Shown here one piece after another: positions 51,524 through 58,005 of a DNA stretch of 64,000 nucleotides. A program made the position numbers and the translations under genes. How positions within the stretch are numbered: position 1 is the first letter of the stretch; each line of letters starts with the position of its first letter. The stretch is taken from the NCBI GenBank assembly GCA_014381825.1, contig JACNKX010000143.1:1-64000 (forward strand), read 5' to 3'. Under the pieces are notes generated by a model. It did not search any database, had not been told where the DNA came from, and saw only the letters and a program-made list of their open reading frames with translations. This DNA comes from Planctomycetota bacterium. GTDB taxonomy: Bacteria; Planctomycetota; Planctomycetia; Pirellulales; Pirellulaceae.

Positions 51524-52684
51524 CTAAGCCGCTCGAGAGTTCGATGAGTCTTGATCGTCCGTTGGAAGTGAACGCGAATGATCGTCTGGTGTTGCCTCAT
51601 CGAACCTAACTTCTTTTCGATTGCCATCGGTATCAATGATCGCGAGCAATCGCTCCACAGGTTTGGCTTGGACGCGAGGTATGTGGCCACGAACCGGCAC
51701 GATATCCTGCACGAGTCCCACCAAGGACAGAGCGCGAATGACTGAAAACGCCGGATCAATCTCCCACCACCGATGGCCGGCCGCAGCCGAATTGGGTTCG
51801 GCGTGGTGATTGTTGTGCCACCCTTCACCCATCGAAATCAAGGAAACAAACCAATTGTTGCGACTCTGGTCTGCAGTTTCATACGAGCGATAGCCGGAGA
51901 CGTGCGAGAGCGAATTCACCGACCAAGTGATGTGCCAGACTGCGACGGTACGAACGATCGCGCCCCAGACCAACAGGCTGGATCCGAACTGTAAACCACC
52001 TACCAACGAACCGCCTAGTGCGAGTGTACCGACGCCAAATCCAGCCACGAAGAACATTACCGTGTGTGCTGCCCAGACAAAAAACCATGTGCCCTTGCGG
52101 TCTAGTGCCAAGTAAAAATAGTCTCGGATTAGATCGGGCGCGTATTTGTCATAAGTGACTAACCAGCTGCGGTTCTTCTGTTCCGTTAGCATCCACTCCA
52201 GGTGTGCCCAGAGAAAACTGACGAGTGGAGAATGCGGATCCTCTTCTTTGTCCGAAAACTGATGGTGCATTCGATGCATCGCAACCCAGCGAATCGTTGC
52301 TCCTTGCAAGCAACAGACGCCGAGCAAAGCGAACGTGTATTCCAGCCACTTCGCACACTTGAAGCTCCGATGCGTGAGCAGCCGGTGATAGCCGATATTG
52401 ATGCCGAGTGTGCCAAAACAAAAGATCCCGGCGAAACCGACTGCAACACCGGTCCAACTGAACAGCCAGGGTACCAGAGCTAACATCGCCAGCACATGCA
52501 CGCCCAACACAACCGCGACGTGCTCTCGCTTCCATGCAGCTCGGCCCTGCTCGAGCGGTGACGCAAGCCTAACCAGGGACGACGATTCGGTGGATGAAGG
52601 TCCGGAGATGGTTTGGTCGTCTCGCGTAGTCTTCATGCGATTACCAAGGTTGAAAGGCGAAAGACGAGCGATTGGAGCGCGCAT
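51524..52684 (-). CDS. Acyl-CoA desaturase (delta-9 type)
   Basis: A membrane desaturase of about 386 residues. The three histidine boxes are complete: HRLLTH near residue 100, HRMHH near residue 137, and HNNHH near residue 288. Four membrane helices flank them. It introduces a double bond into fatty acyl chains with a di-iron centre. ATG 52684 is chosen (AAGG upstream); other starts at 52708 (GTG) and 52636 are possible. It lies convergent to the DUF1080 gene across the terminator. Confidence 0.92.
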   Translation of the reverse strand: MRAPIARLSPFNLGNRMKTTRDDQTISGPSSTESSSLVRLASPLEQGRAAWKREHVAVVLGVHVLAMLALVPWLFSWTGVAVGFAGIFCFGTLGINIGYHRLLTHRSFKCAKWLEYTFALLGVCCLQGATIRWVAMHRMHHQFSDKEEDPHSPLVSFLWAHLEWMLTEQKNRSWLVTYDKYAPDLIRDYFYLALDRKGTWFFVWAAHTVMFFVAGFGVGTLALGGSLVGGLQFGSSLLVWGAIVRTVAVWHITWSVNSLSHVSGYRSYETADQSRNNWFVSLISMGEGWHNNHHAEPNSAAAGHRWWEIDPAFSVIRALSLVGLVQDIVPVRGHIPRVQAKPVERLLAIIDTDGNRKEVRFDEATPDDHSRSLPTDDQDSSNSRAA

Positions 52685-52822
52685 GCCAGTGCCTTCTGAC
52701 GATTCCACGCGGCGGGAAGATTACTGAACTCGACTCTTCGAGGCAAGCTCATTCAACCGGTGGTGACAGCGGGGAGTAAGAGCACTGCCAGGAAACACTT
52801 ATCGACTGATCTAAGCAAACGC

Positions 52823-52946
52823 CGTCCGAAAAAGGGGACCGGCTCTGCCAATTCAATCAAGTCGTCGAAGTTGAACAATCGTTGACCTTAACATAGCGGT
52901 CAATTCGCAAAAGCAAGTGGCAGTGCCTGTCCCCTTTAGTCGGACG
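52823..52946. mobile_element. Nested inverted-repeat element (REP/MITE-like)
   Basis: The left arm (52823-52850) and right arm (52918-52946) are nearly perfect inverted copies, sharing CGTCCGA and AAAGGGGAC with only a few mismatches and one indel. Between them TTGACC and GGTCAA form a second hairpin around TTAACATAGC (52881-52902). No coding frame lies inside. The layout resembles the REP/BIME elements that RAYT-type transposases act on, or a small MITE; no transposase is nearby. Confidence 0.7.
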
Positions 52947-53231
52947 AACCACGGCAAGCCACCTTCGATTCACCAGCAACCAATCAAAACATGACTTTAA
53001 CAGCAGCCCGACGCCATGAAATTAGAATGTCCCCTAATCGACGTGCGTACTGTTGGTGCGGTTCCCCCTTTGGCGTCGAGAATCTCCCATCGGGCCGAAC
53101 CCGGCGTGCCGTGCTGGAGATTGCCACGGTCGCGCGGGCACCTGTCGACGGGGATCAGGCGCCTACCCGATCGAGATAGAGGGTATCATAGCCGTTTCAT
53201 GGGATAAACTGGCTATACGGAATCGCTGTCA
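52947..53231. other. Intergenic, with degenerate G/C-run motifs
   Basis: No convincing gene is found here. Truncated GTCCCC motifs at 53031 and 53059-53071 resemble parts of the inverted-repeat arms and may be decayed copies. Short frames here have no recognisable motifs. Confidence 0.4.
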
Positions 53232-53828
53232 ATGCTGCTTTGCTCGTACGTTGTAACGAAAGATTACGGCTTCGCTCCGAATCCATTCTGGGGGTACTGC
53301 ACCGTCGCGACCTGTACCCCAAATCATCAAGACGTTCGCTTAGACGCTGGCGATTGGATAATGGGACATAGCCCAAAGGACGATGGTCGACGACTGATCT
53401 ACGCAATGAAAGTCGCTGAGACATTAGATTACAACGAATACTTCCATGACGAACGCTTTCAAGCGAAGAAGCCACGTCGTAGTGATACATGGATGGAGCA
53501 ATGTGGAGACAACATATACTCCCGTTGTCGCGAAGGAAGTTGGCGTCAGCACTTCACGATATTTCACGATGATGATGTTCTCCGTAGTAAAGACGCCCGA
53601 TACCACAAGGTATTCATTTCGGAGCAGTTTTATTACTTTGGCGAGAATCTTAGGCCAATTCCGTCGCGATTCTCGTCGCTCCTTGTGGGTCGTTGCGGGT
53701 GCAAAAAGCGCCACGATCAAGACACAGTCGATAAGTTTGTGAAATGGATGCTCAGTCACTTAGAACAGGGAGTGCATGGCGGTCCTCGCCACCTCGACGA
53801 GTGGAAGAAAGACCCCAGCACGCGCTAA
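53232..53828 (+). CDS. Nmad2-like protein (nucleotide modification associated domain 2)
   Basis: A 198-residue soluble protein. I recognise the Nmad2 family pattern: a YVVTKDYGFAPNPFWGYCTV opening, ATCTPNHQDVRLDAGDWIMG, RRLIYAMKVAETLDYNEY, a CGDNIYSR segment and a late SEQFYYFGE. The family was predicted from genome context to work with enzymes that make or recognise modified DNA bases, in phage and anti-phage loci; its activity is not established. No modification enzyme or restriction gene is adjacent. The ribosome-binding site is weak. Its family is unlike anything else in the window, and it lies beside an inverted-repeat element, which suggests acquisition. Confidence 0.7.
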   Translation: MLLCSYVVTKDYGFAPNPFWGYCTVATCTPNHQDVRLDAGDWIMGHSPKDDGRRLIYAMKVAETLDYNEYFHDERFQAKKPRRSDTWMEQCGDNIYSRCREGSWRQHFTIFHDDDVLRSKDARYHKVFISEQFYYFGENLRPIPSRFSSLLVGRCGCKKRHDQDTVDKFVKWMLSHLEQGVHGGPRHLDEWKKDPSTR

Positions 53829-54098: not shown

Positions 54099-56453
54099 AT
54101 GTTCGTGCAAATACCAAAGAGTTTCTACCCAGCAATCGTCGTGTGGTTGTCGACTGGTGTGGCTTGGTCACAAGCTGACGAGGCCGTTGATTTCTCGCGC
54201 GAGATTCGCCCGATTCTGTCTGCGAACTGCTTCGCCTGCCACGGACGCGATGACGCAGCTCGTGAGGCCGAGTTGCGATTGGATCGTCGAGAAGACGCTA
54301 TCGCGACACTAGATGGCAAAGCGGCAATCGTGCCGAAGGACTCGCAAGGCAGCGAATTGTATCGCCGGATCACGACCGACGATCCAGAGCAGCGCATGCC
54401 GCCGCCCGATTCGGGCCACGAACTCACCAAGGAACAGATCACGCTGCTACAGCGATGGATCGATCAAGGTGCCCAATACACTCGGCATTGGTCGTTCGTC
54501 AAACCGATCCAACCGGAACTGCCGAACGTCAAACACGCGGAACTGATCAAGCATCCGATCGATGCATTCGTCCTCGCCAAGCTTGAAGAACATCAATTCT
54601 CACTTTCGCAAACGGCAGATCGCTATGCCTTGATTCGACGACTCTCACTCGACTTGACGGGGCTTCCGCCGACTCCAGAGGAAGCCAATGCGTTCGTACA
54701 GGACAATGCACCGAAAGCGTACGAGCGGCTTGTCGATCGCTTGCTCGAATCGCAGCGCTATGGCGAACACTGGGCGCGGATGTGGTTGGACTTAGCTCGC
54801 TATGCCGACACGAAGGGTTACGAGAAAGATCAGCCTCGCGAGATTTGGCGCTATCGGGACTGGGTCATCGAGGCATTGAATACTGACATGCCGTACGATC
54901 AGTTCACGCTCGAACAACTGGCTGGCGATCTGCTGCCAGACGCAACGCCCGAGCAACAGCTTGCGACGGCATTTCACCGCAACACGATGACCAACGACGA
55001 AGGGGGAACAGACAACGAAGAGTTCCGAGTTCTCGCAGTCAAAGATCGTGTCGATACGACGATTCAGGTTTGGATGGGGTTGACGATGGGATGTGCGAAA
55101 TGCCATTCACACAAGTACGATCCGATCACCATGCGAGAGTACTACCAGCTCTTCGCATTCTTCAATCAGACCGAAGACGCTGATCGATCCGACGACGCGC
55201 CCCGGGCGAGTACGCCGACGTCGGAGCAAGTGACAGCTCGAGCTGAATTGGTTGAGCAGCTCGATGAACTGCGAAAGAAACAACAAACGAACGACAAGTC
55301 GCAACAAGAGACGCAAATCAAGGAATTCGAAGCAAAGCTCGCGGAGTTTGACAAGACAATTCAAAAGACGCCGGTGATGCGCGAGCTGGCCGCGGGCAAG
55401 CAACGACGAACGTTCGTCCACGTGCGAGGCAACTTCTTGGAGCCGGGAGAGGAAGTTGAATCGGGCGTTCCGCAGTCGTTCGGCCCGCTGCCCGAAGGCG
55501 TTCCGCGCAACCGACTGGGTGTTGCTCAATGGCTCACTCATCCGGATAACCCACTTACGGCTCGCGTGGCCGTGAATCGTGTTTGGGCGCGACTGTTTGG
55601 ACTCGGTTTCGTTGAAACGGAGGAGGACTTCGGTTCGCAAGGCATTCCTCCGAGCCACCCGCAGCTGCTTGACTGGCTTGCGGTCGAATTCCAAGAGTCA
55701 CTCGGTTGGTCGATGAAGCAATTGTGCAAGACGATTGTGATGTCGGCGACCTATCGCCAATCGTCGAAGGTCGATCCGGCAAAGCAGGCGGCCGATCCGC
55801 GAAACCAACTGCTCAGTCGCGCGCCGCGTTTTAGGCTGTCGGCGGAAGCCGTTCGCGATCAGGCGTTGGCCGCGTCCGGTTTGCTTTCGCCGAAGATGTT
55901 TGGACCGTCCGTCATGCCGCCACAACCATCGGGGATCTGGCAAACGACGTACAGCAAGTTGAAGTGGGCAACTAGCGAAGGCGAGGATCGCTACCGCCGT
56001 GGCCTCTACACATTCCTGCGTCGTACCAGTCCGTATCCGTCGATGCTGATGTTTGACGCCGGAAGTGGTGAAGTCTGTCAGATTCGGCGCATCCGAACCA
56101 ACACGCCGCTGCAAGCATTAGTGACATTGAACGACCCGGTCTACATCGAAGCCGCTGGCGGATTGGCCAGTCGCGTGTTGCACGAGCAGAGCGAAGCTGA
56201 CACCGCGGCACGAGTCAGCCGCGCTTTTCGCATCGTTCTCGTGCGTCCACCTACAGAGCAGGAGACCGCTCGGCTCGGCAGTATGTATGAGTCCACTCTG
56301 GCAGAATTTCAAGCCGACGAGGCGGCGGTCGAATCGTTGATTAAATCGTCGAATGTTGCAGTACCTGCGAAGGCACAGAAGGCCGAGCTGGCCGCATGGA
56401 TCGTGGTTGCGAACGTCTTGCTAAATCTCGACGAAACATTGATGCGGAATTGA
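54099..56453 (+). CDS. DUF1549/DUF1553 secreted protein with cytochrome-like domain
   Basis: A protein of 784 residues from ATG 54099, where a signal peptide ([18 protein letters not shown]) follows; the frame extends upstream but without a credible leader. The N-terminal part is a planctomycete cytochrome-like domain (PSCyt1) with CFACH (Cys44, Cys47, His48). DUF1549 (PSCyt2) covers about 145-360 and carries CAKCHSH (Cys332, Cys335, His336). A charged helical linker follows near 375-430, then DUF1553 (PSD1) to the end, with [20 protein letters not shown]. It starts an operon with a DUF1501 gene 31 nt downstream. Confidence 0.9.
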
Positions 56454-56484: not shown

Positions 56485-58005
56485 ATGAACGAACATCTTG
56501 CCTATGCGAAAGCCGTCACGCGCCGCCACTTCTTCGGTCGCGCTGGGCTCGGCGTCGGTGCGATGGCACTGGGATCGATGGCACAGTCGCACGGAGCGGT
56601 GGCTGCGCAAACGCCGGCCAGCTCGATGAGCCCCCGGCCGCCTATGATTCCGGCCACGGCCAAGTCGGTGATCTATCTGCACATGGCCGGCTCTCCTTCT
56701 CAGTTGGAGTTATTCGAGAACAAGCCGGCATTGACCAAGTTCCATGGCCAAGAGTGTCCCCAAGAGTATCTCGACGGAAAACGATTCGCCTTTATCAAGG
56801 GCGTTCCAAAGATGCTCCGTCCGCAGTTCAAGTACGCGCAGCATGGCCAATCGGGACAATGGATCAGCGAGCTACTGCCAAACTTCTCGTCCGTGATCGA
56901 CGATGTTTGTGTGATCCGATCAATGCATACCGAACAGTTCAACCACGCTCCCGCGCAACTGTTCGTTCACACTGGCCAATCGCGACTCGGTTTCCCCTCG
57001 ATGGGATCATGGGTCACGTACGGACTCGGCAGCGAGAATCAGGACATGCCGGGCTTTGTCGTCTTCGTGTCGGGCGGCAAGACGCCGAGCGCTGGCAAGT
57101 CGCTCTGGGGATCGGGCTTCCTGCCTTCGGTCTATCAAGGCGTCCAATGTCGGACGACGGGCGAACCGGTTTTGTACTTGTCAAATCCCGCAGGCATTAA
57201 TCGACAACTGCGCCGCAAGACGCTCGATGCCATTCGTGACTTGAACCAATACCAGCTGGAGCAAGTTGGCGACGCCGAAACGCTGACTCGAATCGAACAA
57301 TACGAACTGACTTATCGAATGCAGGTTGCCGTTCCCGACGTGATGGACATCTCACGCGAGCCACAACACATCCTTGATCTTTACGGAGCAAAACCTGCTC
57401 ACGTGTCGCAATCTGACGGTGCGGATGATCCGCGACCGTTGTACAAAGGCGACGACCCGACGTTCGCTAACAACTGTCTCTTGGCGCGTCGTTTGGTCGA
57501 GCAGGGAGTGCGGTTTGTGCAGCTCTATGATTGGGGCTGGGATCATCACGGCAGCTCGCCGGGTGAGTCGCTCGACGAGACGCTACCGATCAAGTGTCAG
57601 CAGATCGATCGCGCCATGTCGGGTCTGATCACGGACCTCAAGCAGCGAGGCCTATTCGATTCAACACTGATCGTTTGGGGCGGCGAGTTTGGCCGCACCC
57701 CGATGATGCAGAACAATGTCAACGAAGAGCTGAAGCCCGGATTCGTCGGTCGCGATCACCATCCGTATGCTTATACGATGTGGTTGGCAGGTGGAGGCAT
57801 TAAGCCAGGTTTGGCGTACGGTGCAACGGATGACATCGGCTACTACATCGCCGAGAACCAAGTCGGTATCCGCGACCTGCAAGCGACTATCTTGCATCAG
57901 CTCGGATTGGATCCATATCGGTTCAGCGTGCCGTATCAAGGGCTGAACAATCGGTTGATCGGACCCACTGACGAGGGTAAGGTTTTGGACGCGATCCGCG
58001 CGTAG
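56485..58005 (+). CDS. DUF1501 secreted protein
   Basis: A 506-residue protein with the leader TRRHFFGRAGLGVGAMALG, a twin-arginine signal. VIYLHMAGSPSQLELFENKP near residue 64 and VWGGEFGRTPMMQNN near residue 395 are DUF1501 hallmarks, and GRDHHPYAYTMWLAGGGIKP follows. It pairs with the DUF1549/1553 gene upstream, the standard planctomycete arrangement. Function unknown, although the fold is that of alkaline phosphatases and sulfatases. Confidence 0.9.
   Translation: MNEHLAYAKAVTRRHFFGRAGLGVGAMALGSMAQSHGAVAAQTPASSMSPRPPMIPATAKSVIYLHMAGSPSQLELFENKPALTKFHGQECPQEYLDGKRFAFIKGVPKMLRPQFKYAQHGQSGQWISELLPNFSSVIDDVCVIRSMHTEQFNHAPAQLFVHTGQSRLGFPSMGSWVTYGLGSENQDMPGFVVFVSGGKTPSAGKSLWGSGFLPSVYQGVQCRTTGEPVLYLSNPAGINRQLRRKTLDAIRDLNQYQLEQVGDAETLTRIEQYELTYRMQVAVPDVMDISREPQHILDLYGAKPAHVSQSDGADDPRPLYKGDDPTFANNCLLARRLVEQGVRFVQLYDWGWDHHGSSPGESLDETLPIKCQQIDRAMSGLITDLKQRGLFDSTLIVWGGEFGRTPMMQNNVNEELKPGFVGRDHHPYAYTMWLAGGGIKPGLAYGATDDIGYYIAENQVGIRDLQATILHQLGLDPYRFSVPYQGLNNRLIGPTDEGKVLDAIRA

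Follow-up and report, generated by a model that had tools for sequence, protein, structure and literature searches.

The window, the whole 64,000-nucleotide stretch of planctomycete DNA analysed here, contains a complete reading frame, from ATG to TAA, for a 198-residue protein (Table 1). The protein matches a single Pfam family, the nucleotide modification associated domain Nmad2 (PF18753; hmmscan, E=1.5e-49), with a score of 168.6 bits (curated cut-off, 26.1), and the match spans residues 4 to 188 of the protein and positions 5 to 196 of the 200-position profile. By Pfam it is a single-domain protein, and it shares its length, its start and its conserved blocks with other members of the family, the start codon being aligned with the start of its relatives. 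The profile search bears out the assignment to Nmad2 made in the earlier note, and no other family gave a better match. Searches of PADLOC, PHROGs and NCBIfam with the window protein returned zero matches, a PDB sequence search with the protein or a 27-row profile gave nothing credible, and Pfam gave no EVE (PF01878) match in it.

Conserved residues were defined as those common to at least 90% of 26 relatives, which gave 38 residues. The window protein has 36 of these 38, and the two departures (L25V and S109T) are both conservative. The polar residues D11, N17, C23, C28, K79, D93, and N94 are kept across the family, C28 being present in every Nmad2 protein in which the loop is covered. Position W20 had looked like a cage residue. 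Its apparent invariance in the first alignment (A1) is partly search bias, since that alignment was gathered with the search seed PNPFWGYC; later loci were found with the Pfam profile, and many Nmad2 proteins collected independently of the seed have H, Y, F, N, or M at this position.

Table 1 Features of the window around the Nmad2 gene
Feature	Position	Strand	Basis or remarks
Nmad2 (PF18753) coding sequence, intact	53232..53828	+	198 aa; profile match, aligned start, conserved residues
CTPNH codons (residues 28-32), signature of orphan sub-clade	53313..53327	+	Alignment, clade support
Left neighbour, fatty acid desaturase family (PF00487), divergent from Nmad2	51524..52708	-	Pfam
Right neighbour, PSCyt1/PSCyt2/PSD1 planctomycete protein; orthologue in same-genus genome G002	54102..56453	+	Pfam, G002 comparison
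DUF1501 gene, beside the PSD1 gene also in G002	56485..58005	+	Pfam; 79% nucleotide identity over 3.9 kb
Imperfect palindrome, REP-like	52831..52937	.	Arms 52831-52853 and 52915-52937, 23 nt, 87% complementary
GC-rich dispersed repeat, about 95 nt	53074..53176	.	55 nt separate its end from the Nmad2 start codon

Ten genes around Nmad2 were tested (46.8 to 63 kb), and all are ordinary for a planctomycete. To the left lie genes for GCS2, a YjgF-like protein, an unknown, GSDH, and the desaturase, and to the right PSCyt1/PSCyt2/PSD1, DUF1501, ThuA-like, cytochrome, and DUF6797 genes. No gene on the same strand lies close to Nmad2: the desaturase gene on the left is transcribed divergently, and about 270 nt separate Nmad2 from the start of the PSD1 gene. 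None of the ten neighbours is an effector or defence gene. A nuclease gene adjoining Nmad2, as would be expected for modification-dependent (type IV) restriction, is absent from the window locus, and no nuclease is fused to the protein; a nuclease does lie beside Nmad2 in some relatives. The window gene is also the one Nmad2 copy in the 9.69-Mb genome, in keeping with the solitary position in a planctomycete genome that had been described for it.

The palindrome reported beside the gene was confirmed. Its 14-mer AAGGGGACAGGCAC was counted 5 times in the genome and the reversed control 0 times. Of the 95-nt repeat, the window genome contains two more copies, and others are present in each of the two same-genus genomes. 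Six aligned copies have a mean column identity of 81% and all carry CGCCTACCCG at the end, and in these three genomes the copies adjoin unrelated genes. An identity as a known RNA was rejected for this repeat, since an Rfam search up to E = 1 gave nothing. Four Y1-transposase genes are present in the window genome. The palindrome and the 95-nt repeat fit insertion-prone DNA and do not indicate the route by which the gene arrived. Of the mobile-like repeat in the earlier note, the repeats themselves are real, but they are low-copy and nothing shows that they moved the window gene.

The base composition and distribution of the gene set it apart from its surroundings. Its G+C content is 49.9%, compared with 56.3±1.5% in 31 other genes of the window, and its GC3 is 54.3, compared with 63.3±3.1. 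Among 60 near relatives, 4 have Nmad2; within the family the figure is 11 of 241 genomes and within the phylum 14 of 392, a patchy presence that runs counter to conservation at one site in all relatives. In the same-genus genome G002, both downstream genes are present at 79% nucleotide identity and Nmad2 is absent from the 675 nt upstream, where the contig ends short of showing an empty site directly. The only Nmad2 of the second same-genus genome is a divergent one at another place; this lineage (locus L064, G001:C150) lies near an AAA ATPase gene with NsnB/AriA-like PADLOC matches. The nearest relatives of the window protein come from Chloroflexota, Desulfobacteraceae, Acidobacteriota, and another planctomycete. 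Because the gene is low in G+C and GC3, patchy in relatives, missing from the stretch available in G002, and closest mainly to proteins of other phyla, it was probably acquired horizontally.

The related loci comprised 28 from GTDB contigs, 18 from plasmids, and five from viral contigs; partner families were named by Pfam on representatives and extended to the other loci by blastp clusters. In about 10 loci, Nmad2 directly follows a ThsB-like TIR gene. These TIR-Nmad2 loci hold, in various subsets, genes for thymidylate synthase, the helical domain of a 5-hmdU kinase (HMUDK_hel), SLOG, a second TIR protein, MazG_C, and dCTP-deaminase-like and uracil-DNA-glycosylase-like (UDG) proteins. At L066 (5033-9142), two different Nmad2 genes occur close to each other on the same strand, separated by a ThsB-like TIR and a MazG_C gene. 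Pectobacterium DNA with a TIR-Nmad2-thymidylate synthase-kinase arrangement was sought in E. coli genomes and gave no match. About 14 rows of the tree have Nmad2 within conflict systems built from TIR, SLOG, thymidylate synthase, 5-hmdU kinase, and MazG_C genes, whereas no such partner is found among the ten neighbours of the window gene.

Two further arrangements recur. In 15 loci, Nmad3 (PF18754) abuts or, often, overlaps Nmad2, and such pairs are found across Nitrospirota, Planctomycetota, Spirochaetota, Myxococcota, and an archaeon. The window differs in that no Nmad3 was detected in its genome, a negative weakened by the same outcome in the control genomes. At L113 (3067-12038), a type I restriction operon has the order HsdM, HsdS, small gene, Nmad2, DUF4268, HsdR on one strand, with Nmad2 and DUF4268 (the PADLOC candidate PDC-S11) between HsdS and HsdR; L114 and L115 have related arrangements. 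Some Nmad2 loci have no TIR, Nmad3, or type I restriction partners. Phage records searched for Nmad2 gave no match, and among viral contigs a single-sequence search found zero and a profile search five distant relatives, mostly in TIR, MazG_C, or UDG contexts. In the IMG/VR contigs L120 (5519-8411), L119, L122, and L123, Nmad2 accompanies a MazG_C and a UDG-superfamily gene, which suggests that this module is carried by viruses or proviruses. The conflict-type operons of the relatives uphold the link of the family to conflict and modified bases that had been proposed. DefensePredictor names a nucleotide-modification associated domain among its predicted systems, and its legend of experimentally validated systems lists NMAD, TS, and 5hmdUk, with the Nmad family unspecified in the text (PMC13092281).

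In a phylogenetic tree of 53 Nmad2 proteins, genomic contexts are strongly clustered (11 changes compared with 27.6 when shuffled). The window protein falls into a supported clade (99/94) of seven proteins from four phyla, the others being L002 (Desulfobacteraceae), L003 and L004 (Chloroflexota), L005 and L009 (Acidobacteriota), and L074 (another planctomycete). All seven have CTPNH at residues 28 to 32, where almost all other Nmad2 proteins have CK(P/S)xxR, for example CKPKIR (the CKPxIR loop). Since the K and R of that loop are missing, the ligand of the CTPNH clade may differ from that of other Nmad2 proteins. The clade also has no constant partner gene. In five of the six relatives of the window protein, a defence-type gene lies within three genes of Nmad2: a PD-(D/E)XK nuclease in L002, a GajB-like helicase in L003, a DpdE-like helicase with DUF4268 in L005, a NACHT protein in L009, and an AbiEi_4 protein in L074. 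This is only suggestive of a defence association.

A solitary gene whose relatives often stand in operons could be the decaying remnant of a larger defence operon that has lost its other genes, as the earlier note had proposed. This is very unlikely, because the frame is intact and the conserved residues described above are kept, with start and end both aligned. In addition, the nearest relatives in other phyla mostly lack known partners too; the solitary state is therefore clade-wide and no local accident. A second account places the orphan CTPNH clade outside a conflict setting, with a cellular role such as binding of modified RNA. The lack of a fixed partner, the ordinary genes around the window gene, and the alteration in every clade member of the loop beside the putative pocket are consistent with it. 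However, low G+C and patchy distribution suit mobile accessory genes better than housekeeping genes, and defence-type genes stand near most clade relatives, so we consider a cellular role unlikely, if worth keeping in view.

The predicted structures of Nmad2 resemble almost exclusively proteins of the PUA superfamily. An AlphaFold model of the window protein, made with 26 relatives, has a pLDDT of 78.1 and a pTM of 0.78 and is weakest at the conserved N-terminal loop; an independent model of the relative L014, made with 31 sequences, reaches a pLDDT of 95.0 and a pTM of 0.90. Across both models the leading structural matches are ASCH, EVE (PH1033, MJECL36, and THYN1), and YTH (Mmi1, YTHDC1, and YTHDF2) domains and VcaM4I. 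For the window model, the first Foldseek matches are ASCH, EVE, and YTH proteins, led by an ASCH protein of Zymomonas, and VIA gives a best Z of 7.0 with the top 50 all YTH. For the L014 model, the best VIA match is YTHDC1 with m6A (Z 7.8, 131 residues, 3.8 A) and the top 50 rows are exclusively YTH, ASCH, or EVE; its Foldseek list includes THYN1, PH1033, MJECL36, VcaM4I, and ATP sulfurylase, whose N-terminal domain is PUA_2, a "PUA-like domain" in Pfam. ASCH-domain proteins also appear among viral matches. Foldseek E values were never below 0.001 (about 0.05) and Z was always below 8, a level that according to the tool may reflect just a common arrangement. We regard a PUA-like fold for Nmad2 as a likely assignment, moderate but consistent across the predicted models.

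Nmad2 differs from YTH, EVE, and ASCH domains in being about 50 residues longer, in its other conserved motifs, and in the lack of sequence-profile similarity to EVE. The Nmad2 profile scored 15.2 against EVE in hhalign (shuffled mean 14.1) and a second alignment scored 11.7 (shuffled mean 13.8). Membership of EVE by sequence was thus rejected, as these scores lie within the range of the shuffled controls and Pfam finds no EVE match. A Trp followed 19 to 21 residues on by G(D/S) is common to EVE and the seeded Nmad2 set. The Nmad3 profile at L014 (8588-9478) aligns weakly with EVE (GDLFLFFGL with GDxVLFYHS; 3 of 60 shuffles as high), and Nmad3 may also be PUA-like; its comparison with the Nmad2 profile fell short of significance, with 8 of 60 shuffles scoring as high.

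The same structural matches raise the possibility that Nmad2 is an ASCH-like PUA-fold enzyme acting on modified nucleosides, nucleotides, or RNA (for example, as an amidohydrolase or ribonuclease) and not a passive reader. An ASCH protein heads the Foldseek matches of the window model and ASCH proteins occur in the viral matches; the conserved polar residues could be catalytic; and the partners of relatives include nucleotide-metabolism enzymes (thymidylate synthase, MazG_C, and dCTP-deaminase-like proteins). The closest fold matches by Z, however, are YTH readers, and nuclease, TIR, or glycosylase partners already provide effectors, which makes an enzymatic role a possible but improbable explanation.

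In YTH, EVE, and SRA-type PUA-like domains, the modified base is held in a pocket. Given the predicted PUA-like fold, the partners that synthesise, remove, or process modified pyrimidine nucleotides, and the TIR and restriction effectors, the simplest account is that Nmad2 would be the recognition part of these systems. Our preferred reading, to which we give a probability of roughly one half, is that the window gene was acquired horizontally and encodes a stand-alone, PUA-like modified-base reader that probably acts against phages, with a putative ligand and effector. The fold of the protein would be that of the PUA superfamily, to which YTH, EVE, and ASCH belong. We infer that its target would be a modified base in nucleic acid, in DNA rather than RNA and most plausibly a modified pyrimidine of invading DNA; that the pocket would be formed around the conserved N-terminal loop PNPFWGYCxxAxC; and that the reader would serve in defence. 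After binding, it would either block the invading DNA or pass a signal to effectors whose genes lie elsewhere in the genome. As the window gene has no nearby effector, the defence role rests on its relatives. A bolder version is that the CTPNH Nmad2 proteins are single-gene defences, PUA-like readers of hypermodified pyrimidines that alone block modified phage genomes and differ in ligand from the operon-bound CKPxIR proteins; we hold this to be distinctly improbable.

The Nmad2 family is already known and named. No description of its function or fold was found in the literature searched, outside whose scope lie Iyer 2013 and a 2015 paper on nucleotide-centric systems, reportedly the founding papers. 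Neither the orphan CTPNH clade nor the PUA-like assignment seems to be described in that literature, and an earlier description of the fold is possible. If Nmad2 is a PUA-like reader, its partners can be interpreted as TIR, restriction, and glycosylase effectors coupled to the recognition of modified bases, which would probably be thymidine-derived. The sensor of hypermodified phage DNA in these systems would then become directly testable, and the orphan CTPNH clade would offer the simplest single-gene material for testing that question.
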